A stretch of DNA of 64,000 nucleotides from a virus. The stretch is from IMG/VR virus record IMGVR_UViG_3300031787_000029, positions 1 to 64,000 of that record; one strand, 5' to 3'. This document shows positions 16,625 to 43,883 of this stretch, one piece after another. Position numbers and translations under genes: made by a program. The notes below the pieces were generated by a model. That model did not search any database. It was not told where the DNA came from and saw only the letters and a program-made list of their open reading frames with translations. Numbering within the stretch: the stretch's first letter is position 1; each line of letters starts with the position of its first letter.

Positions 16625-16810
16625 ATGGCTCACATTGATTTGGAAGCCTATTATCGTATTAATTTTGCTCTCATGCAGTTCCATAAATACTCTTTGACTG
16701 AGGTTGAAAATTTAATGCCTTGGGAAAGAGATATCTATCTTGCCCTATTGAAACAACATATTGAAGAAGAAAACTTAAAGGCACAACAGGCGGCAAATCG
16801 TGGCAATTAA
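16625..16810 (+). CDS. 51: gp51-like baseplate hub assembly protein
   Basis: 61 residues after the gp26 gene, start ATG 16625. Sequence FALMQFHKYSLTEVENLMPWERDIYLALLK matches the short helical protein that follows gp26 in cyanophages and is generally annotated gp51. It is much shorter than T4 gp51 (249), so the equivalence is loose. WERD..L..L is a pattern seen in many tail assembly chaperones. Confidence 0.55.
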   Translation: MAHIDLEAYYRINFALMQFHKYSLTEVENLMPWERDIYLALLKQHIEEENLKAQQAANRGN

Positions 16811-18563
16811 ATCACCACTAAATCCAGGAGTTATTGCTAGAGAACGTAGAGTTACACCAGAAGCAGTTCAGAACTTTATTTCTGGTGGTTCTCCTCTTGG
16901 ATCTTCTGTGGTTGCTAGTGCTGCTAACAAAATTGTAGGATTTCAAAGAGGAACTGCTGGAGTTGCTCCACAAGTTCCAGATCTTGGTTCGATCATTAAT
17001 ACTTTATCATCAAATATTTTAAACAATGTTGAGAATAGAGTACAAGCAATAACTCAAAATGTAAATCAGATTGTTCAAAAAACTGTAGGAGATTTACAAA
17101 ATAGATTTATTTCTAAAACAGATTCTATTGATGCAAACGCTCCGAATAAAATTTTATCCAATTTCTTGAGTTTATATGATAAAGCAATTGGATATATAAG
17201 ATTTTTTGCAAATCCAAATAATATAAAAAGTCTAAATGAAAGTTTAGTAGAACTCAGGAAAGTATTCGATGAAACTTTCAAAGTCGCTAAAAGCATTCGT
17301 CAAACAATTATAAGAATAGTCGATCAACTTTCCAATCTACCTACAGCTAATGCAGGAGGTGGTGGAATAGATTTGGATGTTAAAGTTCCAGGCCCACCAT
17401 TAAAAAGAGCGGGAAACACTGGAATATTAAGGTCTATGAGAAGACGCCCTGGATTAATGTTGGGTGGTGCTGCTCTTGCTGGTGCAGGCACTGGAGCAAT
17501 GGTGACCAATGCTCTTCAAGACGTTGGCGGTGGAGTTCAACCTCAGTTAATGGGAGAAACTGGTGAAGGATTATCTGGACCATTACTAGACAAGTTTAAT
17601 GCAATATTAGATAGATTTTCTGCTGTTCTAAAGTCATTATCAACGAGACCATCAAAACAACAACCTGGAGGAGGAAAATCCACATCTACACAAGCGAAAG
17701 ATGGAGCTCGAGGAGCTACAGGAGCACCTGGAGCACCTGGTGTTTCTGGATCACCTGGTGTTACTACGACTGGAGAAAAGGGGGTATTAGATCTTATTGC
17801 TTCAGTCGAACAAGGTCCGGAAGGATATGATAGTTTTAATACAAGTGCAGGAAAAACTCCCGGTAAGGCTACAGAGCAAACGATTGGGTGGTTGGCTAAA
17901 AACGCACGAGGAGCAATTGGTAGATATCAACAAATGCCCCAATATCTATTGGAAAGAGCGCAAAGAGCTGGATTCAATGCAAATACAAAATTTACACCAG
18001 AAGTTCAAGATGCAATAACACTAAACGAATTAAGATCAAGTCATGGAATAAATGAGTTTTTATCCGGTAAAATATCAGAAGAACAATTTTTACAAAAACT
18101 TGCTCCAACATGGAGAGGATTGCCTCAGGGAAAAATTAATGCTGCAAAACTAGGCGGAACAGCAGATTTAACATATCAAGATCAATATTCTGGAAGAAAT
18201 CTTGCTGGCAAAACATATGCAACTACTATTTCCGAATTGAGAAATATTAGATCAGGTGGTAATAAACCAGTCGCATCAACTCAACAACGAAATAAACCGG
18301 CAGTTGTTGCCGCTCCAGCACAACAACAAATGCAACAACAATCTGCACAACAGGTTGCACAAGTTCCTGTAACACAATCGCAACCACAAGTAAATATTCT
18401 TCCTTTGCAAGGTGGAGGTGGAAATCAACAAGGAACCGCAAAACCACCTCAAGCACCTATAACAGGCATTAGAGGAGAAACTGTTCCAATGTTACCCACC
18501 ACAAATCCTGATAATTTCCTTACATTATATTCTAAAATGGTTTACAACATCGTTGACGGATAA
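16800..18563 (+). CDS. Tail hub protein with collagen-like linker and lambda-R-like lytic transglycosylase domain
   Basis: 587 residues from a GTG overlapping the previous gene. The N-terminal 290 residues are helical with a Gly/Ala hydrophobic stretch (LMLGGAALAGAGTGAMV, about 218-236). Residues about 302-325 are collagen-like Gly-X-Y (ARGATGAPGAPG). Residues about 330-447 resemble the lambda R/GH104 transglycosylase: ARGAIGRYQQMPQYLLE, KFTPEVQDAITLNELR, FLSGKISEEQF and LAPTWRGLPQG. The C-terminus is Gln-rich. It probably opens peptidoglycan during entry, replacing the lysozyme domain that T4 carries in gp5. Confidence 0.7.
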   Translation: MAIKSPLNPGVIARERRVTPEAVQNFISGGSPLGSSVVASAANKIVGFQRGTAGVAPQVPDLGSIINTLSSNILNNVENRVQAITQNVNQIVQKTVGDLQNRFISKTDSIDANAPNKILSNFLSLYDKAIGYIRFFANPNNIKSLNESLVELRKVFDETFKVAKSIRQTIIRIVDQLSNLPTANAGGGGIDLDVKVPGPPLKRAGNTGILRSMRRRPGLMLGGAALAGAGTGAMVTNALQDVGGGVQPQLMGETGEGLSGPLLDKFNAILDRFSAVLKSLSTRPSKQQPGGGKSTSTQAKDGARGATGAPGAPGVSGSPGVTTTGEKGVLDLIASVEQGPEGYDSFNTSAGKTPGKATEQTIGWLAKNARGAIGRYQQMPQYLLERAQRAGFNANTKFTPEVQDAITLNELRSSHGINEFLSGKISEEQFLQKLAPTWRGLPQGKINAAKLGGTADLTYQDQYSGRNLAGKTYATTISELRNIRSGGNKPVASTQQRNKPAVVAAPAQQQMQQQSAQQVAQVPVTQSQPQVNILPLQGGGGNQQGTAKPPQAPITGIRGETVPMLPTTNPDNFLTLYSKMVYNIVDG

Positions 18564-27463: not shown

Positions 27464-27611
27464 GGTCGATTATAAAAAACCAAAGAAAAAAGGTTACAGT
27501 AATCAGAGTGTGATTTTCTTTAATATTGAAGATGCTATCAGGTGGGAAAATCATGTAAAAGAAAACTGTTGTATAAATGTAGAAGTAATTCCGATTTTAA
27601 ATGATGTTTGA
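27453..27611 (+). CDS. Small basic protein, 52 aa
   Basis: MKYKVDYKKPKKKGYSNQSV start, then a hydrophobic/acidic segment with a Cys-Cys pair (ENCCINVEVIPIL). It overlaps the genes on both sides. It could be an independent small protein or a partner of the enzymes downstream; nothing in it proves either. Confidence 0.5.
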   Translation: MKYKVDYKKPKKKGYSNQSVIFFNIEDAIRWENHVKENCCINVEVIPILNDV

Positions 27612-28503
27612 GAGAGTAGACTGGACACTGAAAAAAGAGTCAAATAACAAATTAGATTTGTCGAATAATGTTTGTTTTGACTCAATTTTGCAAAATCAAA
27701 TTGCAGGTCTTTTTCGCAATAAGGGTCCAGTCTGCAATCAATATGCAGATGAAGGGGTGGTTTATGACATTCTTTCAGAATATTATGAAATTTCTTCCAG
27801 ACAAATTGCAATAGGACTTGGATTGGGAGAGTTGATACCAAGAATCTTTCAACTCTATAGAGACAGAAAGTTCTCTATTATTACTCCCACATGGATGATG
27901 GCTACAGGATTCTGTGAGATTTACAATATCAATTATGTGGAGGGAATTGATACCTCTGCTGACGTATTGTATATTGCGAATCCTAATGGAATGACAGGGG
28001 AATATACACATCCAGACAAGATACGAGAGCTATTTTCTCAATTTGAATTAGTAATCATTGATGAAGCCTACGCAGAGTTTTGTGTGGAAATTGATTGTTC
28101 TCTAATTTCTTCCGCAATAACTCTTGATAATGTGATCGTATGTAAAACCTTGAGTAAAAGTCTTGCTTTACCTGGACTTAGATTTGGATATTGTTTTTCT
28201 AATGAAAAAACGATTTATGAGATCCAAAAAGTAAGACCTTCTGGTGTATGTAATACTATCATTCCTAGTATTGGAATAGAACTTTTTGAACTAATTCCTC
28301 AACATGTAAAAAGGATGTTAGACTGTAGAACGTATATCCAACGTAAATATGATTGTGTTCCATCGCACTCTAATTTTGTTTTGTTGAAGAACAAAGAAAA
28401 GTTTTTAGATTTTGTAAAATATAAAACTATCAATGGTCTACATAGAATGTCCCTTTTAGATTACAGTTCTTTTAGATATTATGAAGAGATTTCAAACCTT
28501 TGA
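27601..28503 (+). CDS. PLP-dependent aminotransferase, HisC-like (class I/II)
   Basis: 300 residues of the fold-type I aminotransferase family nearest to histidinol-phosphate aminotransferase and CobD. Seen: substrate loop ANPNGMTGEY (126-135), PLP-binding IIDEAYAEF (Asp154, Tyr157) and the PLP-lysine motif KTLSKSLALPGLRFGY (Lys186, Arg194). HisC's terminal RITIG-like Arg region is poorly kept (GLHRMSLLDYSS), and the protein is about 50 residues short of HisC. Histidine synthesis is therefore unlikely. ATG 27601 and 27604 are both possible starts. The end overlaps the radical-SAM gene by 23 bases, suggesting one pathway. Confidence 0.85.
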   Translation: MMFERVDWTLKKESNNKLDLSNNVCFDSILQNQIAGLFRNKGPVCNQYADEGVVYDILSEYYEISSRQIAIGLGLGELIPRIFQLYRDRKFSIITPTWMMATGFCEIYNINYVEGIDTSADVLYIANPNGMTGEYTHPDKIRELFSQFELVIIDEAYAEFCVEIDCSLISSAITLDNVIVCKTLSKSLALPGLRFGYCFSNEKTIYEIQKVRPSGVCNTIIPSIGIELFELIPQHVKRMLDCRTYIQRKYDCVPSHSNFVLLKNKEKFLDFVKYKTINGLHRMSLLDYSSFRYYEEISNL

Positions 28504-29227
28504 TGGAACAAGTGGAAAAGATTTAATTAATTCTACACTTAAAAGCATAGAACTAAATATAACCACTACATGTAATCGATCTTGTTCTTTTTGTCCACAT
28601 TCATGGGGATTCAAAAAAGAAGATACAAGGGAGAAATTTGTTTCATTGGATATCGTAGATAGATTTATTGAATGGTTATCAGACTATGATAATCAAATTA
28701 CGTTATGTGGTCTTGGTGAGCCCACTATGCACCCACAGATTAATGATATCCTTGATAAATTCCAAAAACTAAACAACAAAATTATTCTTGTAACTAATGG
28801 ATATAAACTAAAAGATGTTGTAAATCATTTGGGTAAAATTCGTGCAAGGGTAAGTCTATATGAAACTATGGATTTGCCGAATATTGATTGTGATATTTTG
28901 GATTACACAAATCAAGGAGAAAATGAATACTTCAATAATAGAAGTTATGGTGAAGGGATAACTAAATCATGTTATCTTCCATCATATAAAATGGTAGTAG
29001 ATACCAATGGTGGAATTTTACCTTGTGACAATAACTGGCAAGAAATTTTATACCTTGCCAATATCCAGGAGGACACATTAGAGTATGCATGGTTGGAAAA
29101 ATTCGGACCATTCAGACTAAACTGTTCCAAAGATAGAAAGTTGAATGATTACTGCAAGTCTTGTAATGCACATGGAACTCTCTATGGGGAAAGTGAAATG
29201 AGGCTCTTGACAACTGACCAAATCTGA
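28481..29227 (+). CDS. Radical SAM enzyme with SPASM/twitch-like C-terminus
   Basis: 248 residues. The cluster-binding CxxxCxxC is CNRSCSFC (Cys31, 35, 38). It is followed by CGLGEPTMHP (SAM-binding GGE-type region) and LVTNGYKL. The C-terminal part has MVVDTNGGILPCDNNW and DYCKSC, the cysteine pattern of SPASM or twitch auxiliary clusters. Such enzymes modify peptides, sugars or cofactors by radical chemistry. It overlaps the aminotransferase gene. Substrate unknown. Confidence 0.85.
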   Translation: MKRFQTFDGTSGKDLINSTLKSIELNITTTCNRSCSFCPHSWGFKKEDTREKFVSLDIVDRFIEWLSDYDNQITLCGLGEPTMHPQINDILDKFQKLNNKIILVTNGYKLKDVVNHLGKIRARVSLYETMDLPNIDCDILDYTNQGENEYFNNRSYGEGITKSCYLPSYKMVVDTNGGILPCDNNWQEILYLANIQEDTLEYAWLEKFGPFRLNCSKDRKLNDYCKSCNAHGTLYGESEMRLLTTDQI

Positions 29228-30358: not shown

Positions 30359-30970
30359 ATGAAATCGGATTTTTATATAGATAGAGTTAGTAAAGATGAA
30401 ATTAAAGATCTTCTTTATACTCATCATTACTTAAAAGATGAATCCAAAGATTTCAAATCTGGGTATAACTATGGACTTTTCAAGCATCCAGACTGGGAAT
30501 GCCCTCTTAGACTTGGCGGGTGCCTTGGTGCTTGCGTTTTTACTGGTCTCCCAGTTCCAGAAATAGCAGTAGGAGCATTTGGATTAGATCGTAATGAACA
30601 ACAAGGAATCTTTGAACTCTCCAGACTTTGCATCGAACCTAGTACGCAGTCATGCGAATATAACATCACTTCTTGGTTTGTGTCACGAGCGATTAGACAA
30701 CTTCGGAAAGATACTGAAGTTAAAGCGATCATCTCTTACGCTGATAACAGTCACCATGTTGGTACAATCTATCGCGCTTGCAACTTTAAGTATTACGGTC
30801 TCACGGATAGAAAAAAAGATTTCTATTATTCAGACGGAACTAAACACTCTCGTGGAAAAGTAAAAGGACAAGAGGGTGAATGGAAAAATCGAAGCCAAAA
30901 ACACAGATATGTAATGATCTTTAATAAAGAGTTGAACGATAAACTTGCCTGGAAAGAAGTAAAGTGGTAA
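30359..30970 (+). CDS. Mom-like adenine-modification protein (GNAT fold)
   Basis: 203 residues resembling the Mu Mom family, which converts adenine in phage DNA to a carbamoylmethyl form that blocks restriction. Seen: YTHHYLK near the N-terminus (about 20-26), FELSRLCIEP (85-94), SWFVSRAIRQLRK and SYADNSHHVGTIYRACNF (126-143), the GNAT-like core shared with Mom. It ends before a strong terminator. Substrate and chemistry in this phage are inferred from the family only. Confidence 0.75.
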   Translation: MKSDFYIDRVSKDEIKDLLYTHHYLKDESKDFKSGYNYGLFKHPDWECPLRLGGCLGACVFTGLPVPEIAVGAFGLDRNEQQGIFELSRLCIEPSTQSCEYNITSWFVSRAIRQLRKDTEVKAIISYADNSHHVGTIYRACNFKYYGLTDRKKDFYYSDGTKHSRGKVKGQEGEWKNRSQKHRYVMIFNKELNDKLAWKEVKW

Positions 30971-31096: not shown

Positions 31097-34000
31097 ATGC
31101 CCCTAAGTAGATTAGAGAATTTCCTCAAAAATGCTGAAGGTAATATTCTTTATGTAAACCCAGCAGACTTCGATGCTACAGATAGTTTTGAAAATAGAGG
31201 TAACTCGTTAACCAGACCCTTCAGAACAATTCAAAGAGCATTAATTGAAGCGGCAAGATTTTCATACAGAGAAGGAAGAAATAACGATAAAATTGACACT
31301 ACGACTATCTTAGTTTATCCAGGAACTCACTATATTGATAATAGACCTGGACATTCTATTCAAAATGTAAGTGGATCAGCTGTATTTAAAAAATTAGTAA
31401 ACGGTGCGTGGACTACTTCTGGTGCTACCTTAACGGAATTTGATGAAAATTCAAACTTTGATATCTTTGATGAAGATAATGATTTATACAAATATAACTC
31501 GGTAGAAGGCGGTACTATTTTACCAAGAGGAACATCAATCGTTGGATTAGACCTCCGTAAAACTAAAATTCGTCCATTATATGTACCAGATCCATATAAC
31601 GATAATATTGCAAACTCCGCTATTTTCCGAGTAACTGGTACTTGTTACTTCACTGCTTTTACCATATTCGATGCTGATCCTTCAAGAGTCGCTTATAGGG
31701 ATTCCACAACAGCAAAAGTAAATCCAAATTTCTCTCACCATAAGTTAACTTGTTTTGAATATGCTGATGGTGTTAATAAAGTAATCCTTGACTCAAATAC
31801 TACGGGTCTAACTGACCTTGAAATGTATTATTATAAAATTACTTATGCCTTTGGTGATACATCTGGTAGAGGTTTACCCAACTTCCCAGTAGCTACTGGA
31901 ACTGATTTTGAACCTTCTATTGATGAATATAGAATCGTTGGAGATCTTAGATCCGATGCTATTGGTATTACAAGCATAAAAGCAGGAGATGGTGTAGTCG
32001 CTACCAAGACTATTTCGGTTAAAACTTCAGAGTCTCATGGATTGTTTAAAGATACCCCAGTGCTAATTGCGGGTATTACTACGAACTTAGAGTCATATAA
32101 TGGATCTTTCTTCGTAGCTGATGTATTAAGTGATACTGAATTTACCTATGTTTCTCCATCACAACCAACAGATCCACTACCAGATGTTGCTACATTTGTA
32201 AACTCATCAGTAATTGTAGAGTCTGATAGTACATCTTCGGCTTCTCCATATATCTTCTCATGTACGTTGAGATCCGTTTATGGTATGAACGGTCTTCATG
32301 CAGATGGATCAAAAGCAACTGGATTTAAATCCATGTTGACTGCACAATTTACTGGAATTTCTCTACAAAAAGATGATAATGCATTTATACTTTATGATCC
32401 AGAAACTGGAATTTATAATGACAATTCCACTGTAGCTGATAATGAAAAACCACTACACATAAATTCCAGAGCAATTTATAAGCCTAGTTACGAAAACGTA
32501 CACATGAAGGCATCTAACAATGCCATTATTCAGTGCGTATCTATTTTTGCTATTGGTTATGCAAAACATTTCGTTTCCGAGTCTGGTGGAGACCAGTCCA
32601 TTACAAACTCAAACTCAAACTTTGGTGCAATTTCCCTAGAGTCTTCTGGATTTAGAGGAGAATCTTTTGACAGAGATGATGTAGGATACATCACACACGT
32701 TATTCCACCAAGAGAACCTGCTCCAAGAACTTCAGCAGTTACTTGGTTACCTCTTGACGCACTAAAAATTGTCTCTGCTGCAACAACAAGTAGATTATAC
32801 ATTGCAAATTACAAATCTGCAGATATTCCACCACCAAGCCAAATTGACAGTTATAAGGTAGGTGGAAAAAGAGGAGAAGAGTTATACTTCTCTACAATTA
32901 TTGGTATAGCTCAGAGTACATTCTCTTCTCCAGTATTGATGCAAGTTCCTTCTGGAATTAGTACATCGGCTGAAAAGATCTATACCGTTGGTAGATCAGC
33001 AGGTATTAATAGTATTTCATCAAATATTATTACTCTTACCTCAAATCACCAGTTATTTAATGGAGAAAAAGTAAGAATTTATAGTGATACAGGAGAACTC
33101 CCATCAAACGTACAAAATAATAAAATTTATTATGCATTAACTAATGGTGTAGCATCTAATCAAATTAAACTCTCATCTACATTAAATGATGCCAACTCTG
33201 GAAATAATATTACTGGAATTTCAAATGGAGGGGGAGTAATAACTATTCTAAGTACTGTTTCTGATAAAAATCCAGGAGATGCAGGACACCCAATTCAATA
33301 TGATACAACTGAAAGACAGTGGTATGTACAAAGTTCCCCAACAACTTCAACTAATAAAATTTACGATGCAATTGTAGGAATCGGAACTAGTGTTCTTGGA
33401 GAAGTTACAGGTGCATGTTACATCTTAAGAAGAGTAGACAATAGAGGTATTGATGAAAGAATTTATAGATTACGTTACGTAATTCCAAAAGAATATCTTA
33501 ATGCTAGACCACCAACAGATGGATTTATTCTTCAGGAAACAAAATCAGCTGGTATTGGAAGTGCTTCGTTTGTAAGTTCAAACGTAGAAGATCCCACACA
33601 ACTAAAAAATCCAAAGATAATACTAGATGCATCATACCTATCAGGAACCGCAACAATCAAAACAGAGTTACCACATAACTTAGTTGCTGGGGACCTAGTA
33701 AAAATAACCAATGTTGTAAGTAGTAATAATACAACTGGTTCTAATGAAATACCATACAATGGTAGTTTTATAGTCAATGAAGTTCTAGGTCCAAGAGAAT
33801 TTAATTATATTGGATTAACAAGTAGTCCAGGAACGTTCTTAAATCAGACAAACCAAAGAACCACACAACAACAAATTGAAGCTCTACCTACAGTACAAAG
33901 AGAAAAATACAAAGAAAGTATTTTCATCTATAGAAGTACAGAAATTAAAAAACATATTCCAGGTTCTGATGGCCAGGATGGAATTTATAACTTAACAGCG

Positions 34001-37000
34001 ATTTGTGGAAGTATTAGACCAGAAACCTCTGTTGGATTTGGTTTAAGTGAGAAAAGGTTCAATCAAGACGTAAGAAATTTATATCCACAACAAGATAGAG
34101 ATAATTTCAATTCAGATCCACTACCATCTACAAGTTTTGCAGATCTCGATCCACTAGGAAAAATTAGTACTAATGATAAGAGACTCTCAATTACCAAAGA
34201 AGCTCTAAACATTTTCCTTGAAAATAATAGAATAGGATATGCAATTACCGGTGCAACTGTAAGTGGAGTTGGTAATACTACAATTACATTATATACAAAT
34301 GTTGAACATGGTTTAAACCAGATTAAATCTTTATCATTGATTAATCCTGGGGCAGGATATAATAATAGTGCTGGTGTTACTAGTACAATATACTCTGCTG
34401 ACTTAGTTAATGGTAGTATAAATGGCGAAGGTGCATCCGTAAAAGCAAACATCTCAGTAGGTAATACTATTACTAGTATTTCATTAGTAAATGGTGGTTG
34501 TGCTTATGGTGTTGGAAATACCATGACCATATCAGCTTCTCCTGCTGGTTCCCCAACAACATCTGCCGTAGTACAAGTAACAGAAATATTTGATAACGTC
34601 GGTGATACCTTAGAACTGTCTGGATTTGTTAATCCTGCATATAATGGAATTTTTAGAATTTTATCTGTACCAAATTCCAGATCTGTTCAAATTTTAAATA
34701 CTGGATTAGGAACAGATTCAAGTGCTGCAGCATACAGACAAAGAACAGACTCCAGATATCCAATAGCCACATTAGTTTCCAATGGGGTCGGTATAACCAC
34801 TATATCATACACTAAAGAAACTGGTATAGCGACAGTAACATGTTTAAGTGCTCATGGACTCATTCCAGGAAATACTTTCAAACTGGTTGGAACAGGAAGT
34901 ACATTCTTCAGTGAAAAATTCTTTGTAAATGAATCTGTTGGCATTAATACATTTAATTTTAGTGCAGGAATTTCCACAATTTCTCATACTACTTCTTCAA
35001 GTGGAATGACCGTACACAAATATGGAATTTCTGCTAATGCAAGGGCTTTAGGAGCTGGTGAGGAGAATTTAGGTGGAAGAGGATCATACATTTATGCAGG
35101 AATTACTACAACTCTAAGTGGAAATATTAGTAATACTACGACGACATTATCTCTAACATCTGCAAATGGATTCAAAAAGGGTGATTATATTTTAATCAAC
35201 TCCGAAATTTTAAGAATTACTTCAGATCCAGTAGGAAATTCAATCACCGTATCTAGAGGACAATTCTCTACTTCAGTTTCATCTGCACTTTCTGGATCTT
35301 CTGTTAGAAAGATCCGTGTCTTGCCTATGGAAATTCGCAGACACTCTATTCTTCGTGCATCTGGCCATACTTTTGAATATCTTGGATATGGTCCAGGTAA
35401 CTATTCAACAGGTTTACCTGTAAAACAGAATCGTGTGTTGAGTGAGGATGAGGTTCTAATCTCACAAGCAAGAGAACAAGATGGTGGTACTGTCGTTTAC
35501 ACTGGAATGAACGATAGAGGAGAGTTCTATTCTGGTGCAACTAAAATTAATGGTGCAACAGGAGAAGAAACTGTTATTGAGGCTCCTATTGTTACATTTT
35601 TTGGAGAAGATGAGACCGACACTGACGTTAATAATAAACTCAGTGGAGTTTTTGATGATTTAGTTGTAAAAGAAAGAATTACTATTGAAGGTGGTGAAAA
35701 CAATAACCAAACATCACAGTTCTATGGTCCTGTAAACTTTGGACAAAAAGTTACTTGTGCTTCAGAAGATGGACTTGAGACAAGAGATCTATTTGTAAAG
35801 GGTATCGCATCACAACCAAAACTCATAACTGTTGGACTTGCAACTCCTACAGATCCTAAGAAACCTGGTGATATTTCACTCCTAGCAACTCCAACTCCAT
35901 CTGGATACATTGGACATGTTTATGCTGATGGAGATTGGCGTCGTTGGGGATTAATTTCTCAACAAAAAGATAGAAACTTCTTAAAATTTGATCAAATTGG
36001 TGTAGGATCAAGTGAAGGAGTATACAACTTTACTGATGCTGCAGAAGTTAATGGTACTTTGAAGGTTAAGAATCTTTATGTGGGTGGTGCGGTTACGTTT
36101 GCATCCAATCAGGCATTCACAGCTGTTACCTATGAAGACATTACTGTTACAAATCAAATTAACTATGCAGGAACTGGATCATCAACTTATACAATCAGAC
36201 ATCCAGATGCTACATCTATTGCACAATTCCAAAACATAGAAGTTACTGGAACTGCTGCAACATTTACAACTGCAAGAGTAAGACTAGAGAATTCTCTAAA
36301 TTCCGTTTTTGCTGGAGTATCTACTTTTGCTGGAACGGTTGAAATAGGAAATCTTGTATGTAGTGCAGGAATTCTAACTGTATTTGAATTAAGAGGAAAT
36401 CAGATCGGTATTGATACAATAACTGTAAGAAACAATGCTTTCATAACATCAGGTATTGTAACTAACTTATATACGAATGTTTCTTCTGCAACCAGTTTCT
36501 TCGGATATGTGGGTGTTATTACATCTCTAACTGGTCTTGCATGTACATTCACAAATGTTAATGGTACAAATGGATTCCTTAGTGGTCTTCGTGCAACTTC
36601 ATCATTTGCAACACCAAATGCTTTCGTTAATGTTGGAGTAACCACAACACTTTCCGGAACAAGTTTAACTTATACCAGATCTTCAATTGGTTTAGCTACC
36701 ATCACGAACTTAAATTCTACTGACTGGATTGGAGCTCCAACTGCTTATATAAATTCAGGACTTGTAACTGCGATTACCGCAAATTATATTGGCGGTGGTT
36801 TAGGTGGAAATCCACTATCTATTTCAGTCAATAGTGGTGTTATCACATCTCTAACTGGAACCGCAGCAACATTCACAAGTGTAAGAGCATCTTCTAGTTT
36901 AGTTTCTAATGATCTGGTATCATCTCCAGTAGGTGTTATTACAGCATTAAGTGGAGATAGAGCAAACTATACTGGTATTGTTACTGCACAAAGGTACGAA

Positions 37001-37678
37001 TCAACAGTTGCAACTGGAGCTCCACCAATAGTTGTTGCTTCAACTACAAAAGTAACTAATCTGAACGCAGATTTACTGGATGGTTTAGATGAATCAACAT
37101 TCTTAAGAAGAACAAATGATGTATGGCATACCAGTCAAGATGGTGATAATAGATTCTATTTCACAACAGACGGAAAAACTTTATATGGATCTGCAAATGG
37201 ACATGAGTTTAGAAACAGTTCAGATTCTGCTAGTTTCATCATAAACAATGATGGAACAGTAAACTTTAGTTCAACTGCAGTATTATCTTCTAATGGAATA
37301 ACTGCTACAACAAACGCTCTTGTTGATAAGGTCATTTTAAAGAACTATGCAGAAAGACTCGTAAATGTTGGAAATACTGGTAGTGCTACAACACTAAATC
37401 TTGCCGATGGTAATTTCTTCGCTGCAACATTAAATGCTAACTGTACTTTCACTTTCTCTTTAGGAGTTAATAACGCTTCTGCAACGAGTTTCACATTATT
37501 ATTAACAAATGATGGTACTTCAGGTAGATCAATTGTATGGCCTGCCAGTGTTAAGTGGCCAAACTCAACCGTTCCAACAAGAACCACATCAGCAAATCGT
37601 TCGGATGTTTATACGTTCTTCACTACTAATGGAGGTGCAAACTGGTATGGTGCCTTAGCACTATATAATTATGCATAA
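31097..37678 (+). CDS. Giant tail fibre/virion structural protein, 2193 aa
   Basis: The N-terminus (LYVNPADFDATDSF, FRTIQRALIEAARFSY, ILVYPGTHYI) is the conserved start of a cyanophage structural protein with a beta-helix-like fold. Long beta-rich Gly/Ser/Thr segments follow, including GAGYNNSAG-type repeats near 1090. Residues about 1680-1960 hold many short repeats of the GVITSLTGTAATFT kind, typical of fibrous shafts. LNADLLDGLDEST is at about 1990. The last 110 residues resemble a fibre end domain (NRSDVYTFFTTNGGANWYG). It is probably a long fibre or baseplate-attached fibre. Confidence 0.75.
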   Translation: MPLSRLENFLKNAEGNILYVNPADFDATDSFENRGNSLTRPFRTIQRALIEAARFSYREGRNNDKIDTTTILVYPGTHYIDNRPGHSIQNVSGSAVFKKLVNGAWTTSGATLTEFDENSNFDIFDEDNDLYKYNSVEGGTILPRGTSIVGLDLRKTKIRPLYVPDPYNDNIANSAIFRVTGTCYFTAFTIFDADPSRVAYRDSTTAKVNPNFSHHKLTCFEYADGVNKVILDSNTTGLTDLEMYYYKITYAFGDTSGRGLPNFPVATGTDFEPSIDEYRIVGDLRSDAIGITSIKAGDGVVATKTISVKTSESHGLFKDTPVLIAGITTNLESYNGSFFVADVLSDTEFTYVSPSQPTDPLPDVATFVNSSVIVESDSTSSASPYIFSCTLRSVYGMNGLHADGSKATGFKSMLTAQFTGISLQKDDNAFILYDPETGIYNDNSTVADNEKPLHINSRAIYKPSYENVHMKASNNAIIQCVSIFAIGYAKHFVSESGGDQSITNSNSNFGAISLESSGFRGESFDRDDVGYITHVIPPREPAPRTSAVTWLPLDALKIVSAATTSRLYIANYKSADIPPPSQIDSYKVGGKRGEELYFSTIIGIAQSTFSSPVLMQVPSGISTSAEKIYTVGRSAGINSISSNIITLTSNHQLFNGEKVRIYSDTGELPSNVQNNKIYYALTNGVASNQIKLSSTLNDANSGNNITGISNGGGVITILSTVSDKNPGDAGHPIQYDTTERQWYVQSSPTTSTNKIYDAIVGIGTSVLGEVTGACYILRRVDNRGIDERIYRLRYVIPKEYLNARPPTDGFILQETKSAGIGSASFVSSNVEDPTQLKNPKIILDASYLSGTATIKTELPHNLVAGDLVKITNVVSSNNTTGSNEIPYNGSFIVNEVLGPREFNYIGLTSSPGTFLNQTNQRTTQQQIEALPTVQREKYKESIFIYRSTEIKKHIPGSDGQDGIYNLTAICGSIRPETSVGFGLSEKRFNQDVRNLYPQQDRDNFNSDPLPSTSFADLDPLGKISTNDKRLSITKEALNIFLENNRIGYAITGATVSGVGNTTITLYTNVEHGLNQIKSLSLINPGAGYNNSAGVTSTIYSADLVNGSINGEGASVKANISVGNTITSISLVNGGCAYGVGNTMTISASPAGSPTTSAVVQVTEIFDNVGDTLELSGFVNPAYNGIFRILSVPNSRSVQILNTGLGTDSSAAAYRQRTDSRYPIATLVSNGVGITTISYTKETGIATVTCLSAHGLIPGNTFKLVGTGSTFFSEKFFVNESVGINTFNFSAGISTISHTTSSSGMTVHKYGISANARALGAGEENLGGRGSYIYAGITTTLSGNISNTTTTLSLTSANGFKKGDYILINSEILRITSDPVGNSITVSRGQFSTSVSSALSGSSVRKIRVLPMEIRRHSILRASGHTFEYLGYGPGNYSTGLPVKQNRVLSEDEVLISQAREQDGGTVVYTGMNDRGEFYSGATKINGATGEETVIEAPIVTFFGEDETDTDVNNKLSGVFDDLVVKERITIEGGENNNQTSQFYGPVNFGQKVTCASEDGLETRDLFVKGIASQPKLITVGLATPTDPKKPGDISLLATPTPSGYIGHVYADGDWRRWGLISQQKDRNFLKFDQIGVGSSEGVYNFTDAAEVNGTLKVKNLYVGGAVTFASNQAFTAVTYEDITVTNQINYAGTGSSTYTIRHPDATSIAQFQNIEVTGTAATFTTARVRLENSLNSVFAGVSTFAGTVEIGNLVCSAGILTVFELRGNQIGIDTITVRNNAFITSGIVTNLYTNVSSATSFFGYVGVITSLTGLACTFTNVNGTNGFLSGLRATSSFATPNAFVNVGVTTTLSGTSLTYTRSSIGLATITNLNSTDWIGAPTAYINSGLVTAITANYIGGGLGGNPLSISVNSGVITSLTGTAATFTSVRASSSLVSNDLVSSPVGVITALSGDRANYTGIVTAQRYESTVATGAPPIVVASTTKVTNLNADLLDGLDESTFLRRTNDVWHTSQDGDNRFYFTTDGKTLYGSANGHEFRNSSDSASFIINNDGTVNFSSTAVLSSNGITATTNALVDKVILKNYAERLVNVGNTGSATTLNLADGNFFAATLNANCTFTFSLGVNNASATSFTLLLTNDGTSGRSIVWPASVKWPNSTVPTRTTSANRSDVYTFFTTNGGANWYGALALYNYA

Positions 37679-37687
37679 TTGATCTAA

Positions 37688-38281
37688 ATGATGGATATTA
37701 AATACTTAGATTTTATAGGGATGTACTCAGAAGTATATCCCGATGGATTTTGCAATCATGTAATTAATGAATTTGAAAAGTTAATAACTGCAGGACATTG
37801 TGGAAATCGTCAAGATAATGAAGGAGTGACAAAAACAAAAAAAGAAGATGTCTATTCTTTTTTAAACCTAAAAAATCACTTATTAAAACCCTTTAATGGT
37901 GTCCCAGTTGTCGATATTTTTTTTGAAGGTTTGCAAAAATGTTATGAAAGTTACACTGACCAATTTGACATTTTAAAAGGCATAAGTCTTAAATGTACTG
38001 CTATAAAAATTCAAAAAACAGTTCCAGGTGCAGGTTATCATGTTTGGCATTGTGAACAGGGAAGCGATCTTGGCGCTGACAGATGTTTGGTTTATTCGTT
38101 ATATCTAAATGACATAGATGGTGCTGGGGAAACGGAATTCTTATATCAAAAACTAAGAATTGAACCAAAAGAAAATTGTATGATTATATGGCCAGCAGCA
38201 TATACTCATACACATCGAGGAAATGTTGTTCATGGCAATAAATCCAAATATATAATAACAGGTTGGTTTTATTTGGATTAA
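37688..38281 (+). CDS. 2OG-Fe(II) oxygenase-like protein
   Basis: 197 residues. The double-stranded beta-helix pattern is visible in GYHVWHCEQGSD (putative metal-binding His/Glu), VYSLYLNDIDGAGETEFLY, IEPKENCMIIWPAAYTHTHRG (distal His) and KYIITGWFYLD. The usual HxD may be H-x-E here, so metal-site identity is uncertain. It lies between the giant fibre and the glycine-rich adhesin, so hydroxylation of tail proteins is plausible. Confidence 0.65.
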   Translation: MMDIKYLDFIGMYSEVYPDGFCNHVINEFEKLITAGHCGNRQDNEGVTKTKKEDVYSFLNLKNHLLKPFNGVPVVDIFFEGLQKCYESYTDQFDILKGISLKCTAIKIQKTVPGAGYHVWHCEQGSDLGADRCLVYSLYLNDIDGAGETEFLYQKLRIEPKENCMIIWPAAYTHTHRGNVVHGNKSKYIITGWFYLD

Positions 38282-38285
38282 AAAG

Positions 38286-39404
38286 ATGCCTATAACCAGA
38301 GACATTTTCAGAGCAACAATGGAAGGTGGTGGAAGTGTAACTTTCATTGCTCCTGACACTTCAAATTTTGAAACTACCTGGACAACACCTGCGAAAATTT
38401 CAAAAGTTTCTGTTGAAGGTGAAGGTGGTGTTGGAAATCCAGGTGGTGAAGGAATTGCTGGATCTGGAGGAAATGCTGGTGTAGGTAATGATGGAAACGC
38501 AGGCCGCTGCGGTGGTGGCGGAGGTGGTGGTGGTGCATGTTCAACCGCAGGAGATTTTAGAACCCAAGATGGTGCCTCAGGAAATCCCGGTACTTTTCCT
38601 GGAGGAGGTGGAGGTGCTGGAGGAGCAAAACGAGCTTCACTAAGTTACGGTACTTCCCCTAGACCCTCAGCAACTGCCACTGCAGGTTCTTCTGGTGGTG
38701 GCGGTACAAATGGAAATCCAGGCACTACTACTTCTGCAGGTTCTGGTGGTTCTGGTGGTTTTGGTCCTAGTGGTAACCCAGGAAGAGCTAGTACTGTTTT
38801 TGGAATATCCTTTCCAGGGGGAGCTGGAGGTTCTGGTGGATCCGGAAATAATGGTACTCCAGGAACTAATGGTGGGGCTGGTACTGGTGGAGCCGGTGGT
38901 TCTGGTGGTGGCGGCGGCGGAGCTGGAAGTATTAATGCTGGAACATTTACTTCGGCTAGTGGAAATACTAGTTTCGGTGGTCCTGGTGGATTGGGAGCAG
39001 GAGACATATTTCCCGTAGTTTCATCCAGAACAGGAAATCCTGGAGGCAGTGGACCCGGAAGAACGGGTACAGGTTCTGCGACTGGTGGAGGAGGTGGAGG
39101 AGGCGGCTTCGCGGCCGACGGTCAACGTGGCGGCGATGGTGGTTCAGGTGGATCAGTAACCCCACCAACAAATGCTCCACAGATCAAATCTGCTGGCGGT
39201 GGAGGAGGTGGAGGAGGTGCTTCAAATCCAGGTAATGCAGGATTTGATGGTGATTTTGGAAATCCAGGAGATTCTAATCCCGGTAATGATGGAAGTCCAG
39301 CAAATCCAACTACTGCAAGTGATATTGCAGTTACCCCTCTAACTAATTATCCAGTTTCTGTTGCTGCTGGTGGATACATAACAATCACTTGGGGTTCCCA
39401 ATAA
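38286..39404 (+). CDS. Glycine-rich tail adhesin (gp38-like polyglycine sandwich)
   Basis: 372 residues, dominated by Gly. A short N-terminal beta domain (FETTWTTPAKISKVSVEGEG) leads into glycine-rich motifs (GGGGGGGGACS, SGGSGGFGPSGNPG, GGAGGSGGSG) broken by Asn-Pro-Gly units. This is the composition of T2/S16-type gp38 adhesins, whose polyglycine-II sandwich carries receptor-binding loops. It sits directly after the fibre and an oxygenase. It is the likely host-range determinant; the non-glycine loops would be variable. Confidence 0.75.
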   Translation: MPITRDIFRATMEGGGSVTFIAPDTSNFETTWTTPAKISKVSVEGEGGVGNPGGEGIAGSGGNAGVGNDGNAGRCGGGGGGGGACSTAGDFRTQDGASGNPGTFPGGGGGAGGAKRASLSYGTSPRPSATATAGSSGGGGTNGNPGTTTSAGSGGSGGFGPSGNPGRASTVFGISFPGGAGGSGGSGNNGTPGTNGGAGTGGAGGSGGGGGGAGSINAGTFTSASGNTSFGGPGGLGAGDIFPVVSSRTGNPGGSGPGRTGTGSATGGGGGGGGFAADGQRGGDGGSGGSVTPPTNAPQIKSAGGGGGGGGASNPGNAGFDGDFGNPGDSNPGNDGSPANPTTASDIAVTPLTNYPVSVAAGGYITITWGSQ

Positions 39405-39408
39405 ATAG
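39401..39408 (+). promoter_or_regulatory. T4-like late promoter box (ATAAATAG)
   Basis: Overlaps the adhesin stop codon, 22 bases before the next ATG. Confidence 0.4.
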
Positions 39409-39430
39409 AAGTACTTACTGAAAATTAATT

Positions 39431-39883
39431 ATGGCACCTAAGAAAACATCAAAAACAAGACAGAAAATCCATCAACTTTATGAAGAAAACGAACTCGCAA
39501 ATTTAGAGTCAAATAGAAATAGAGCGAGATCATTTTCAGTAGGAACAACCACTGGTGGAATCTTAGAAATAAGTATGAGAGGTGACTATTCTCATCTTTG
39601 GTATATACTCCAACCTGTAGAAGCTGTAGAGATAATTAACCAATTGGCAGCTGCAACTGGATTAGAAGTTGCGATGAGACCCAGACAAGATTTTGCCACT
39701 TGGAGAGGATGGGACACCGATACTCCAAATGGTGCTTTTTGGGTGGGAGCTGCTGCTTGGCAACTAAAGGAAGAAGATAGACTTAAAATAGAGGAAACGA
39801 AAATGAAAAATATAAAATCAATTGAACCAGTAAATGAAAATGATGAAGTAAAAGAAGAAAGTGAAGTAAATGACGAAGAATGA
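39431..39883 (+). CDS. Conserved cyanophage structural-module protein, 150 aa
   Basis: Begins with a basic helix (MAPKKTSKTRQKIHQLYEEN), then a beta/alpha core (GDYSHLWYILQPVEAVEII, FWVGAAAWQ) and an acidic C-terminal tail. This arrangement recurs near cyanophage tail genes. It overlaps the next gene by 14 bases. Function unknown. Confidence 0.6.
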   Translation: MAPKKTSKTRQKIHQLYEENELANLESNRNRARSFSVGTTTGGILEISMRGDYSHLWYILQPVEAVEIINQLAAATGLEVAMRPRQDFATWRGWDTDTPNGAFWVGAAAWQLKEEDRLKIEETKMKNIKSIEPVNENDEVKEESEVNDEE

Positions 39884-40427
39884 TTTTTATGTTTTAGTAG
39901 ATACTAATACGAAACAAATAATAAGTAAATTAGAACCACTCCCAGAATACTGGAAAAATATAGCTGGCCTAACCAATTTTTCTGAAGAAGAATTAAAGGA
40001 CTTAAGTTGGAGTGGGAATCCAGGTTTAGGATGGATTAAAATAACTTCAGAATTATTGGAAGACTATAGTTCATCTCCAGAAAATTTAACTCTGAATAAA
40101 AATCATTTTAAACAAATTATTTCCGATCATTTTGAATTAAAAAAGGAAATAGGTGTTACTTATAAAAATATAAGGTGTCCTGTTAATAAAACTACTATTT
40201 TTGATTTAAATATTAAAAATTTACAAGCCGATCAAAGTCCAGAAAAAACATTTGTTTATAAGATAATAAACGATTATTATTCATTCCGTGCAGAAGAAAT
40301 AAAAGAATTGTGTGATCTTATAAATCAACATGATATTGAATTATCACTATCAGAAATGAACATTTTTAAAGAAATTGAATCTTGTTCGACAGTACACGAG
40401 CTATCTAAAATTAATTATGATCTCTGA
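39870..40427 (+). CDS. Tail-fibre-module hypothetical protein, 185 aa
   Basis: Begins FYVLVDTNTKQIISKLEPLPEY-style (first 20 residues polar/hydrophobic), with GNPGLGWIKI, then a helical C-terminal half. The start resembles fibre-assembly chaperones or fibre-associated proteins, but identity is not established. The end overlaps the next gene by 11 bases. Confidence 0.5.
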   Translation: MTKNDFYVLVDTNTKQIISKLEPLPEYWKNIAGLTNFSEEELKDLSWSGNPGLGWIKITSELLEDYSSSPENLTLNKNHFKQIISDHFELKKEIGVTYKNIRCPVNKTTIFDLNIKNLQADQSPEKTFVYKIINDYYSFRAEEIKELCDLINQHDIELSLSEMNIFKEIESCSTVHELSKINYDL

Positions 40428-41088
40428 CTTTTTTTCATATAAAAATTCTTTAGATGATATCTATCAATTCCAAGTATTATCTAACGGATCAACTAGTGGA
40501 TATTGGTATTTAAATCCTAAAGAGACTGTAAGTTATTCAACAGAAGATAATATCTTTGGTCCTGAAGAAATAAGGGCAATTATCTTTATTTCAAAAAAAC
40601 TAAAAAAACAATATGGAACTGTTGGATCCGACGAAAAAGAAATTGTTATTAAGAAAATAAGAACATCTTCAATATGTTGGATGCCAATGAACTGCAATAC
40701 AGATTGGATCTATAGAAGATTGACTGATTATGTCATTAATCACAACAAGACATATTTTGATTTTGATTTAACAAAAATAGAATCTTTACAATTTACAGAA
40801 TATAGAGGAGAAGAAACTGGACATTATTCCAAACATGTAGATCCAATGTTTTGGAATATACCAGAAGATCGAAAATTGAGTTTCGTAGTTCAACTATCCG
40901 ATCCTTCAACATATGAGGGAGGTGATTTATTATTATATTCTGGTATTTCTTCTGAACCAATAAAGATTGAAAAAAAGATAGGTAAAATAGTATTCTTTCC
41001 TTCCAATGTTTTACACGAAGTAACTCCAGTAACTAAAGGAACTCGACATACTCTAGTGGGTTGGGTTCATGGTCCCAAATTGAGGTAA
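40417..41088 (+). CDS. Prolyl-4-hydroxylase-like 2OG-Fe(II) oxygenase
   Basis: 223 residues from ATG 40417. The P4H-type core is clear: EYRGEETGHYSKHVDPMFW contains the HxD (His-Val-Asp), then LSFVVQLSDPSTYEGGDLLL, then KIVFFPSNVLHEVTPV with the distal His, and KGTRHTLVGWVHG with the 2OG-binding Arg. Known members hydroxylate proline or other protein side chains. Its position one gene cluster from a Gly/Pro-rich adhesin makes virion proteins candidate substrates. Confidence 0.85.
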   Translation: MISDFFSYKNSLDDIYQFQVLSNGSTSGYWYLNPKETVSYSTEDNIFGPEEIRAIIFISKKLKKQYGTVGSDEKEIVIKKIRTSSICWMPMNCNTDWIYRRLTDYVINHNKTYFDFDLTKIESLQFTEYRGEETGHYSKHVDPMFWNIPEDRKLSFVVQLSDPSTYEGGDLLLYSGISSEPIKIEKKIGKIVFFPSNVLHEVTPVTKGTRHTLVGWVHGPKLR

Positions 41089-41094
41089 TTTTCA

Positions 41095-41673
41095 ATGAGT
41101 TTTAGTAAAAATGGTTATTATATTATAGAAAATTTTCTTAATCATGATTTTTTAAAATTTATAGAACAATATTTTTATACAAGAATTAAATCTGGATTCA
41201 ATGTCACCTATGGTGATGATCAAGCTCCAGGTAGTTGTTCATTTTATGGTGACCCTCTGATAGATACCATATTAGAAAATTCTAAAGAACATCTTTCTAA
41301 AGTAACAAATAAAATTTTGTTACCAACCTATAGTTACACAAGATTTTATGGTAAAGATGATGAACTTATAATTCATAGAGATAGGCCATCATGTGAAATA
41401 TCCGCTACACTATCACTAGCAATTCCCAATGGAGAAGAAATATCTCCAATTTACTTTAGTGAAAATGAAGATAAAAGTAATGCTGCAGAGATATTACTAA
41501 AACCAGGAGATTTATGTCTTTATAGAGGATGTGATTTATATCACTGGAGAGAACCATTCACTCAAAGATGGTATTTACAATCTTTCTTACATTATGTCGA
41601 TGCAGAAGGGCCACATGCAAAAAACATTTATGACGGTAGACCCTACTTAGGGTGTCCTCCCAAAAAAGACTAA
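41095..41673 (+). CDS. 2OG-Fe(II) oxygenase-like protein
   Basis: 192 residues. YYIIENFLNHDFLKF at the start is typical of this family. TRFYGKDDELIIHRDRPSCE carries HxD (His-Arg-Asp), SATLSLAIPNG follows, and KPGDLCLYRGCDLYHWREPF has the distal His. The tail RPYLGCPPKKD is unusual. Six bases after the P4H-like gene, so the two are probably co-expressed. Substrate unknown. Confidence 0.75.
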   Translation: MSFSKNGYYIIENFLNHDFLKFIEQYFYTRIKSGFNVTYGDDQAPGSCSFYGDPLIDTILENSKEHLSKVTNKILLPTYSYTRFYGKDDELIIHRDRPSCEISATLSLAIPNGEEISPIYFSENEDKSNAAEILLKPGDLCLYRGCDLYHWREPFTQRWYLQSFLHYVDAEGPHAKNIYDGRPYLGCPPKKD

Positions 41674-42251: not shown

Positions 42252-43883
42252 ATGTGTGGTTTTGGTCTGGTATTATGTAAAAGAGATAAAATTGACTATG
42301 AGTTGATTCGTATTGCAGAAGATGATCTAGGTCTTCGTGGCCCATCTTCTGCGACTCACTATTTGAGTGAACAGGTTTATATGTATCAGTCAGTTCTTGC
42401 GATACAAACTGAACCTAAACATGAAAAGTCAATTGCAAATCTACCAATAAATTACAAAGTTACGTTGTATAACGGTGAGATTTATGATGAGACAAAATAC
42501 TCCAATGACACAGATTACATTAAAAAAGAAGAGTTAGAAAAAATTCTACTCAACTGCGACGGAATGTTTTCTGTTGCGAATGTGGAAAAACATGGATCGT
42601 ATTTCAACGTTGATGTTTATAGAGATGTGATTGGTGAAAAGAGGTGTTTTTACTACGATTCTCCTAGACTGTTTATCATATCCTCAACTCCATCTTTTAT
42701 TAAGGATGTGTTGGAAAAATATGGAGTTCCAATTAGAGTTAATAAAGTTGCTTTAAAAGATTACTTTTTAACAAGACATTACATCTCAAATTCCACTTCA
42801 ATTGAAGGAATTTATCAAGTACCGCCAGGCCATAAATTAACTTACAATAAACATTTAACTGTAGAAAGAGTTTGGTCTGGAAGAGATTATTTAAACACCG
42901 ATCTAATATTTGAACTCAAGAATAAAAGTCAGCATGATTACACATTACAGGTAAATGAGTTATTGTTAAAAACTTTGCAAAAGATGCAAAAGTCTGTCCT
43001 TCCACATGTAAAGGTGTATTCAGTAGTTTCTGGTGGTGTCGATTCTTCTATTGTTACTCATTTTTTAGAACAGGCTGGAGTGAATGTTGAACGTGCAATT
43101 ACTCTGACATTTAACCAAAAGGATCCTGTAGCTTTATCATCAAATAGACTATTCAAGAATCTTTCGTCTTTACAACTACAGAGAAACATTGATATTGATG
43201 AGTATTATGAATCTTACTTGGAATGTTTAAAGTTATGTTGTTCTCCGATTCCATCCCATGATTTCGCTTCTGCAAATATCATGTTTAGTATGGTCGAACC
43301 TGGATCAATACTTTATGGAGGAGAAGGTGCGGATGAATTGTTTTTGGGATACAAATATTACGAAAGTTCAAATAAATCCCAATATACACTACCGATCAGA
43401 AATAATTTTATTCTCTCATTTGAGAAAGAAATTGAAGAGGATTTTAATTATGTGAAAGACTTTTTTAAAAATCATGGATTTTCAGAAAGAGATTCTTCTA
43501 TCAAAGCTTGTTCTTATGTAGATTTCTTTCATCAGATGCCTAATGCAACATTAATGTCAACAGATCTTATTGGATCAAGTCATGGTATTGAGTGTAGGAC
43601 TCCCTTTACTCGTAAAGATATAGTAACTTTTGCTTTAAATTCTCCAGTTTCTTTACTTCTTGGTAAATCATCTTTAGTTAAACTATTTGAAACTTGCTTT
43701 AACACAGTTCCGTTTGAAAAACGAGGTTTCTGTGGACATCCTAACGAGATGTTAAGGTACTTGCCTAACGGGCTCTGCAAGTCTTATAGTACTTTTGGTA
43801 CGGATAGGTTTGAATCCTCTGACAGAGATATTGCATGGAAGTATATCAATACTGAATTTTTCTTAAATAATGTAGCTGGATAA
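42252..43883 (+). CDS. asnB: Glutamine-hydrolysing asparagine synthetase (AsnB-like)
   Basis: 543 residues. Starts MCGFG, giving the N-terminal nucleophile Cys for the class II glutaminase. LYNGEIYD (glutamine site) and GLRGP are seen. The ATP-pyrophosphatase motif SVVSGGVDSSIV is at about residue 255-266, followed by GGEGADELFLGY and the ECRTPF block. These are the AsnB landmarks, in order. Product may be asparagine or another amidated compound, since related enzymes amidate sugars or peptides in surface-polysaccharide and secondary pathways. Unusual company: tail fibre genes upstream, small early genes downstream. Confidence 0.9.
   Translation: MCGFGLVLCKRDKIDYELIRIAEDDLGLRGPSSATHYLSEQVYMYQSVLAIQTEPKHEKSIANLPINYKVTLYNGEIYDETKYSNDTDYIKKEELEKILLNCDGMFSVANVEKHGSYFNVDVYRDVIGEKRCFYYDSPRLFIISSTPSFIKDVLEKYGVPIRVNKVALKDYFLTRHYISNSTSIEGIYQVPPGHKLTYNKHLTVERVWSGRDYLNTDLIFELKNKSQHDYTLQVNELLLKTLQKMQKSVLPHVKVYSVVSGGVDSSIVTHFLEQAGVNVERAITLTFNQKDPVALSSNRLFKNLSSLQLQRNIDIDEYYESYLECLKLCCSPIPSHDFASANIMFSMVEPGSILYGGEGADELFLGYKYYESSNKSQYTLPIRNNFILSFEKEIEEDFNYVKDFFKNHGFSERDSSIKACSYVDFFHQMPNATLMSTDLIGSSHGIECRTPFTRKDIVTFALNSPVSLLLGKSSLVKLFETCFNTVPFEKRGFCGHPNEMLRYLPNGLCKSYSTFGTDRFESSDRDIAWKYINTEFFLNNVAG

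Follow-up and report, generated by a model that had tools for sequence, protein, structure and literature searches.

A six-gene cassette in the tail-fibre region of a virus genome encodes a presumed attachment protein together with three presumed 2-oxoglutarate (2OG)-Fe(II) oxygenases, and the attachment protein may thus be modified chemically by enzymes of the virus itself. The DNA analysed, hereafter the window, is a 64-kb stretch (64,000 nucleotides) that forms part of the 111,083-base IMG/VR virus record IMGVR_UViG_3300031787_000029. The reading that we tentatively put forward is that up to three such oxygenases, foremost one of prolyl-4-hydroxylase (P4H) type, hydroxylate the Gly-X-Y helices of a receptor-binding protein in many uncultured phages, as a collagen-type maturation of the tail tip. 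It draws on the gene set itself, which recurs in two orders, on the conservation of motif residues, on the relationship of one oxygenase to P4Hs and on a proline bias at the Y position of the linked protein family.

The six genes are co-directional, lie downstream of a tail fibre gene on the plus strand and are spaced 4 to 26 bases apart or overlap by 11 and 14 bases. They encode a P4H-like 2OG-Fe(II) oxygenase (OxA, 37688..38281), a glycine-rich adhesin candidate of 372 amino acids (aa; 38286..39404), a conserved cassette protein (g150, 39431..39883), a tail-fibre-assembly-like protein (g185, 39870..40427), a PKHD/PiuC-like 2OG-Fe(II) oxygenase (OxB, 40417..41088) and a putative oxygenase of phrog_2954 (OxC, 41095..41673). 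The fibre gene directly 5′ of the cassette (31097..37678, plus strand; 2193 aa) matches phrog_529 (tail fibre, E 0) and phrog_4527 (E 5.6e-195); this match and the gene order bear out the original prediction, made from the letters of the window, that the cassette follows a 2193-aa fibre.

The cassette is conserved as a gene set, not as a fixed order. Relatives of OxA were taken from viral contigs (at least 600 matches, of which the best 80 were kept); the collection scans gave first or best matches and not random samples. Among the 54 close relatives (at least 44% identity), 51 have a glycine-rich open reading frame (ORF) within 3 kb, and in the other three loci the contig ends 2, 47 and 441 bases past OxA. 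Where 1.5 kb of downstream flank is present, a glycine-rich ORF lies within 3 kb downstream in 49 of 49 close loci, among which near-identical loci remain (clustering at 90% identity reduces 53 close OxA rows to 44 groups), against 0 of the 18 distant loci with that flank; the distant relatives number 26, two of which have such an ORF upstream. In the 31 close loci whose flanks extend 4 kb downstream and 2 kb upstream, the glycine-rich ORF is found in 31, g150 in 30, g185 in 31, OxC in 23 and another oxygenase in 30, compared with 0, 0, 0, 0 and 4 in the eight distant loci with the same flanks. Among the 56 loci L003-L058, 19 have the order Ox-Gly-g150-g185-Ox-OxC, in 30 the oxygenases (Ox-Ox, Ox-Ox-OxC or Ox-OxC) lie upstream of Gly-g150-g185, a class that includes three loci with O-C-G, some without OxC and some ending after the adhesin, and seven are of other order or truncated. 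The second order also occurs in a metagenome-assembled contig filed as Verrucomicrobiales, and locus L003 is near-identical to the window across the cassette region. As a separate observation, contig L009 carries two adhesin cassettes, each incomplete in profile-recognised genes.

A further set of loci was anchored on DNA patterns blind to oxygenases. Those flanked by 1.5 kb on each side have a nearby oxygenase on the same strand in 11 of 14 cases when anchored on Asn-Pro-Gly, in 6 of 23 when anchored on poly-Gly and in 3 of 35 when anchored on Gly-X-Y (p 0.003 and 4e-6), where nearby means within 2.5 kb for the first two sets and 3 kb for the third. The original prediction had proposed a test of co-occurrence between the oxygenases and glycine-rich adhesins; run on viral contigs, it supports the link for proline-bearing glycine-rich adhesins, through both the 49 of 49 against 0 of 18 and the anchored-locus counts. 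The observation itself is upheld, and the link is stronger than had been stated. On a tree of 192 oxygenases, a sample chosen for linkage, at least 14 changes of the label "beside a glycine-rich ORF" are needed, whereas 100 shuffles average 54.7; the linkage is largely inherited, yet not a single event.

OxA is of P4H type by profile and by the fold of its model, and proline hydroxylation is its predicted activity. It matches the Pfam family 2OG-FeII_Oxy_3 (PF13640) with E 3.8e-9 and 37.8 bits, above the curated cut-off of 27, and phrog_61 with E 5.9e-40, and its residues H121-x-E123, H176 and K187 are invariant in 51 aligned sequences, down to 35% identity. At E <= 0.1, the OxA profile finds seven distinct sequences in the PDB, all P4Hs (best 5hv0, E 7e-9), of which three are near-identical bacterial sequences and one, 3gze, is known as a P4H by its entry title only; the single OxA sequence gives weaker matches (best E 0.23). 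An AlphaFold2 model of OxA (predicted local distance difference test, pLDDT, 87.4) has as its top Foldseek match 5c5t, the viral collagen prolyl hydroxylase (vCPH) of PBCV-1 (E 1.1e-9), and VIA-align places a P. putida P4H first (4j25, Z 19.6), with PHD2 at 18.9 and an algal P4H at 18.2; among the 50 entries listed, P4H, PHD2 and vCPH match with Z 17.1-19.6 over 164-184 residues. The Foldseek list also holds PolD, whose title does not name a P4H, and fold alone is no proof of substrate. Among the OxA matches listed from 50,697 phage records, the best stands at 39.5%.

The presumed partner of OxA, the window adhesin, contains 33% Gly, 27 Pro, 13 Pro-Gly and 8 Asn-Pro-Gly, in agreement with its earlier description as rich in Pro-Gly units; its place, its layout and its Gly-X-Y tracts suggest the adhesin role. 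No Pfam family matched it, and Gly_rich_2 (PF21722) matches 2 of 35 members of its family, with a best E of 0.0043. In an alignment of 35 sequences, the ends and the glycine tracts are conserved and the intervening segments vary in length; the model (mean pLDDT 73.8) exceeds 90 in three regions with beta strands and conserved glycine tracts and falls below 50 in loops. Its matches in the second fold search (VIA) are weak: the cyanophage Pam3 fibre 7ypx (Z 7.1, root-mean-square deviation 2.7, 84 residues), the tail tip of phage Bxb1 (Z 4.4) and an ALK extracellular fragment (Z 3.7). The label "gp38-like" that had been attached to the protein found no backing there, as gp38 is not among the five Foldseek and five VIA rows listed, a result from a model of middling confidence that excludes nothing; the protein does have gp38-like traits, namely glycine-rich motifs, variable loops and a gene near the fibre gene. 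A true collagen triple helix was considered for the window adhesin and rejected on account of its 44 phased triplets, short broken tracts and many Gly-Gly pairs. Of the two accompanying proteins, g150 gave no PDB match at E 1, and its family has one PHROG match, in 1 of 28 members (E 0.0052). Within the g185 family (n=27), 18 members match phrog_10508 (tail fibre) and seven match tail fibre assembly families, the window protein itself matching phrog_10508 only (E 0.0027). Neither g150 nor g185 of the window had a tblastn match in the 50,697 phage records (E 1e-3 and 1e-2).

Animal collagen P4H acts on proline at Y, the position preceding Gly. In 39 OxA-linked adhesins, which were not selected for proline, 282 prolines lie at Y and 30 at X in 1705 Gly-X-Y triplets, and Y exceeds X in 35 of the 39. 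These adhesins come from loci L003-L058 (at least 200 aa, more than 25% Gly and [ST]W-Q as C-terminal motif; deduplication by shared 6-mers reduced 43 to these 39), adhesins of the same loci that lacked the C-terminal motif or were cut by a contig end being left out. Six other glycine-rich ORFs of the same OxA-anchored loci have 35 prolines at Y and 127 at X in 1165 triplets. The Gly-X-Y search gave at least 120 stretches, of which 116 new loci yielded 115 proteins; 101 collagen-like viral proteins with this pattern and no nearby oxygenase have 224 prolines at Y and 828 at X in 6154 triplets. In the poly-Gly-anchored set, 13 proteins with a nearby oxygenase have 59 prolines at Y and 3 at X in 427 triplets, with 7 of the 13 tied, and 39 proteins without one have 8 at Y and 4 at X in 408 triplets. 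The share of prolines followed by Gly is likewise higher beside oxygenases (p 2e-4; one protein per locus, p 6e-5); of 114 glycine-rich ORFs, likewise deduplicated by 6-mers, 83 served here and in the counts by position (at least 200 aa and a 150-aa window with at least 35% Gly), and for the share 28 of these, all without an oxygenase, were set aside for a flank shorter than 1.5 kb. Within the Asn-Pro-Gly-anchored set the p value is 0.035, one side holding only 4 proteins. With cruder ORF calling the difference is weaker (16 of 23 compared with 15 of 43 when the Pro-Gly/Pro cut-off is 0.4), and with full flanks none of four cut-offs reached p 0.05.

OxB matches PF13640 (E 5.1e-17, 63.1 bits, cut-off 27) and also phrog_61, and the full HxD...H...R set that had been described for the gene at 40417 is indeed present as H140-x-D142, H200 and R210, invariant in 26 of 26 relatives located after g185. 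Its nearest solved relatives by sequence are a PKHD-type hydroxylase (3dkq, E 1.3e-9) and PiuC (9ghl, E 7.1e-7), so the P4H character that the original prediction saw in this gene does occur in the cassette and is seated in OxA more than in OxB. OxC belongs to phrog_2954 (E 1.2e-46), whose family label is "ferrochelatase"; it has no Pfam family at E 0.1, does not reach the PF13640 cut-off and resembles no solved protein convincingly in sequence (best E 0.64). Among its 61 relatives, H94 is kept in 58, and D96 and H150 in 57. Because Pfam gave no match, OxC is called 2OG-oxygenase-like from this kept HxD...H motif alone, and of the three oxygenase-like genes earlier reported around the adhesin, two are therefore identified by Pfam and the third by motif. 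Given the motif, the label "ferrochelatase" in PHROGs and GenBank records appears doubtful. In S-SCSM1 (locus L085, 6643-8004), a single ORF fuses OxC-type and OxA-type domains, which hints at joint action. Since the OxA and OxB profiles share nearly all their matches (324 in common, of 332 and 326), labels A and B assigned by profile are unsafe, and only C is distinct. Locus L450 was also considered as an oxygenase fused to a Pro-Gly-rich domain and was rejected, its upstream part looking like a chance ORF in GC-rich DNA.

Several findings weigh against proline hydroxylation in the adhesin. The carboxylate ligand position of OxA is Glu (HxE), whereas known P4Hs have an HxD motif, and in HMMER alignments of OxA with P4Hs the first motif is out of register. 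The window adhesin itself has only 5 prolines at Y and 1 at X in its triplets. The bias shrinks to 633 prolines at Y and 262 at X in 4245 triplets when all 58 glycine-rich ORFs beside an oxygenase at OxA-anchored loci are taken, among them near-duplicates and a proline-rich fibre (L006), and in the Gly-X-Y-anchored set the four proteins linked to an oxygenase show the reverse, with 10 prolines at Y and 64 at X. At cut-offs of 0.3, 0.4 and 0.5, the Pro-Gly share gives p 0.013, 0.097 and 0.015, the second of which falls short, and within the poly-Gly-anchored set alone it is not significant (p 0.10). Three of the 14 Asn-Pro-Gly-anchored loci have no nearby same-strand oxygenase. Isolate phages belong here as well, since none of the five isolate stretches (of eight) with a glycine-rich or collagen-like ORF near oxygenases shows the Y-proline bias. 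In S-CAM9, a collagen-like fibre is followed by one small gene and then two oxygenase genes, with proline mostly at X; proline is also mostly at X in the collagen-like ORFs near the oxygenase of P-SSM2 (L444, NC_006883 14000-34000), where several collagen-like Gly-Pro-X genes of the fibre region at about 18.9-26.8 kb precede a piuC-type oxygenase at 27.7 kb. Pro-Gly-poor counterparts are the fibre of S-RSM4, whose gene, with a glycine-rich part, lies directly 5′ of a dioxygenase, a glycine-rich ORF of Mosig about 0.5 kb before an oxygenase array, and glycine-rich ORFs of S-PM2 that a 3.1-kb short-tail-fibre gene separates from the oxygenase. The stretches of S-CAM8, S-SCSM1 and P-SSM7 contain no glycine-rich or collagen-like ORF; in S-CAM8 an OxA relative sits among replication genes, and in P-SSM7 two oxygenases adjoin a gene annotated denV. 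An NPGNPG-type DNA pattern had no match in seven isolate records. These isolates touch in part on an outcome that the original prediction had named against itself, namely that the oxygenases would be just as common in phages lacking adhesins of this kind: three of eight stretches lack a glycine-rich ORF and five have one without the bias.

Three other explanations have to be set against this evidence. The oxygenases might modify the adhesin or fibre at Asn, Asp, Lys or another residue, with the proline bias arising from packing of Gly-X-Y helices, an account that we consider rather unlikely but the strongest of the three. It gains from the residue preceding Y-proline, which is Asn in 399 of 633 cases in the 58 ORFs beside an oxygenase, from the isolate oxygenases that also lie near proline-poor glycine-rich fibre ORFs, and from OxB, which by sequence resembles PKHD/PiuC more than P4H; the protein sets are of different structural type, and part of the proline contrast may be packing rather than chemistry. 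However, the PDB relatives of the OxA profile are all P4Hs, and the 39 unlinked poly-Gly-anchored proteins have few prolines in phased triplets at either position.

Improbable, in our judgement, is that the tail-fibre region merely collects oxygenases of host metabolism and that the adhesin is a neighbour through inherited synteny. Cyanophages do carry many oxygenase copies, treated as auxiliary metabolic genes (nine in S-SZBM1; excerpt of PMC9146016), the low number of label changes on the oxygenase tree points to inheritance, and the linkage counts pool records across lineages. PF13640 occurs in 31 of 50 records, comprising 26 of 29 with a nearby oxygenase, 4 of 20 without and L118, which is truncated downstream; the three misses with a nearby oxygenase (L095, L180 and L105) carry an HxD...H...R sequence. 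Since 16 of the 20 unlinked records have no PF13640 match anywhere, lineage may explain part of the oxygenase link, a further point to the disadvantage of the proposed one; T4 gp23, as a lineage marker, was found in only 2 of the 50 records, both large. Nevertheless, mere neighbourhood sits poorly with a gene set kept in two orders, with the sharp division between close and distant OxA loci, with label changes that number no fewer than 14, and with a proline position that differs with oxygenase linkage. Action on DNA, by AlkB-like repair enzymes or base oxidisers, is very improbable. A repair role has been proposed for cyanophage oxygenases near uvsX or uvsY (excerpts of PMC2984593 and PMC9146016), the S-CAM8 relative of OxA keeps company with replication genes and the window holds a Mom-like gene, but the cassette neighbours are fibre, adhesin and assembly-like genes, OxA has the profile and fold of prolyl hydroxylases, and neither AlkB nor Tet/JBP families appear among the Pfam matches of OxA, OxB and OxC at E 0.1. 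DNA repair was therefore rejected as the principal explanation, neighbours and fold favouring a protein substrate.

Weighing these accounts together, we consider it likely that the oxygenases and the adhesin are functionally linked, and we regard proline in X-Pro-Gly of the adhesin, with OxA as the hydroxylase, as on balance the likeliest target. The interpretation given in the original prediction is supported in part. In the mechanism proposed, in which adhesin role, helix type, substrate, modified residue and effect are all predictions, the cassette would make and modify the protein of the receptor-binding tip. The glycine-rich protein probably folds in part as extended helices of Gly-X-Y triplets (polyproline/polyglycine-II type), which run between conserved ends of beta strand and are accompanied by variable loops, and OxA would hydroxylate proline in X-Pro-Gly, mostly Asn-Pro-Gly, co-translationally or soon after, with O2, Fe(II) and 2-oxoglutarate drawn from the host. 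OxB and OxC probably add hydroxylations to the adhesin or the adjoining fibre, and g185 would aid assembly of the tip. In collagen, 4-hydroxyproline at Y stiffens the helices; hydroxylation of the adhesin would similarly stiffen its extended helices or create a site for further modification. If this is true, phage receptor-binding proteins would be hydroxylated like collagen, tail-tip design would gain a protein modification, and infectivity or host range would depend on O2 and iron. For the many 2OG oxygenases of cyanophages, the cassette offers a concrete candidate enzyme-substrate pair.

The window as a whole comes from a T4-like, cyanophage-type genome, judged by its genes for a gp53-like wedge, tube cap, tail tube, ssDNA-binding protein, hub/lysozyme and CpeT. 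Just 5′ of the fibre gene lies a Mom-type DNA modification gene (30359-30970, plus strand; Pfam Mom, E 1.3e-24), and overlapping aminotransferase and radical SAM/SPASM genes (27601-29227, plus strand) precede a tRNA-Leu gene. Soon 3′ of the cassette is an asparagine-synthase-like gene (42252-43883, plus strand), next to which the Asn richness of the adhesins is perhaps coincidence. A hub protein with a collagen-like stretch had also been reported: the stretch at about 17706-17772, GATGAPGAPGVSGSPG, is real and short, and seen over 17700-17780 (plus strand) it reads GAPGAPGVSGSPG, with proline at Y, inside a 587-aa tail-region protein (gene 16800-18563) whose weak Pfam and PHROG matches leave the "hub" label unsupported. 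A promoter scan returned 24 matches, against a mean of 23.1 by chance.

Within the open-access PubMed Central literature, no report was recognised of this cassette or of hydroxylation of phage fibres or adhesins. The closest structural counterpart, PBCV-1 vCPH (5c5t), is likewise a virus-encoded 2OG oxygenase and is matched by the OxA profile with E 8.3e-6; it differs in belonging to a Chlorella virus, not a phage, and shares 17-20% identity in the Foldseek alignment, whereas OxA has HxE and shares its tail-tip cassette with a further two presumed oxygenases. Evidence that viral proteins contain 4-hydroxyproline is indicated by the title of a 1999 paper cited in PMC9301287, an excerpt of which mentions viral P4H and collagen in tail fibres together and states that the viral use of prolyl 4-hydroxylase "remains cryptic". 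Bacterial P4Hs (P. putida 4j25/4iw3; B. anthracis 3itq and 5hv0) resemble OxA in fold (4j25) and profile (5hv0), but their entry titles give EF-Tu as partner or substrate and, as far as seen, no adhesin. For PHROG 61, the family of marine-phage 2OG oxygenases matched by both OxA and OxB, an EGLN3-like fold with conserved iron ligands, as in human EGLN3, is described in an excerpt of the Phold paper (PMC12774648), which mentions neither an adhesin link nor a substrate; DNA repair or metabolism were the earlier proposals for cyanophage oxygenases in the excerpts of PMC2984593 and PMC9146016. On the side of the substrate, glycine-rich motifs flank variable loops at the fibre tip in the polyglycine-II adhesins gp38 of T2, S16 and PP01 (PMC12892980, in excerpt, with no oxygenase mentioned there), a layout that the alignment and model of the window adhesin resemble, fold likeness not being demonstrated. 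The Pam3 fibre, as top match of the second search, has a Z of a size that the tool describes as common, and the likeness of Gly_rich_2 proteins to the adhesin family is weak and does not extend to the window member. Compared with these systems, protein modification of prolyl-hydroxylase type encoded by a virus is already known, and what would be new is its tie to a presumed phage receptor-binding protein.

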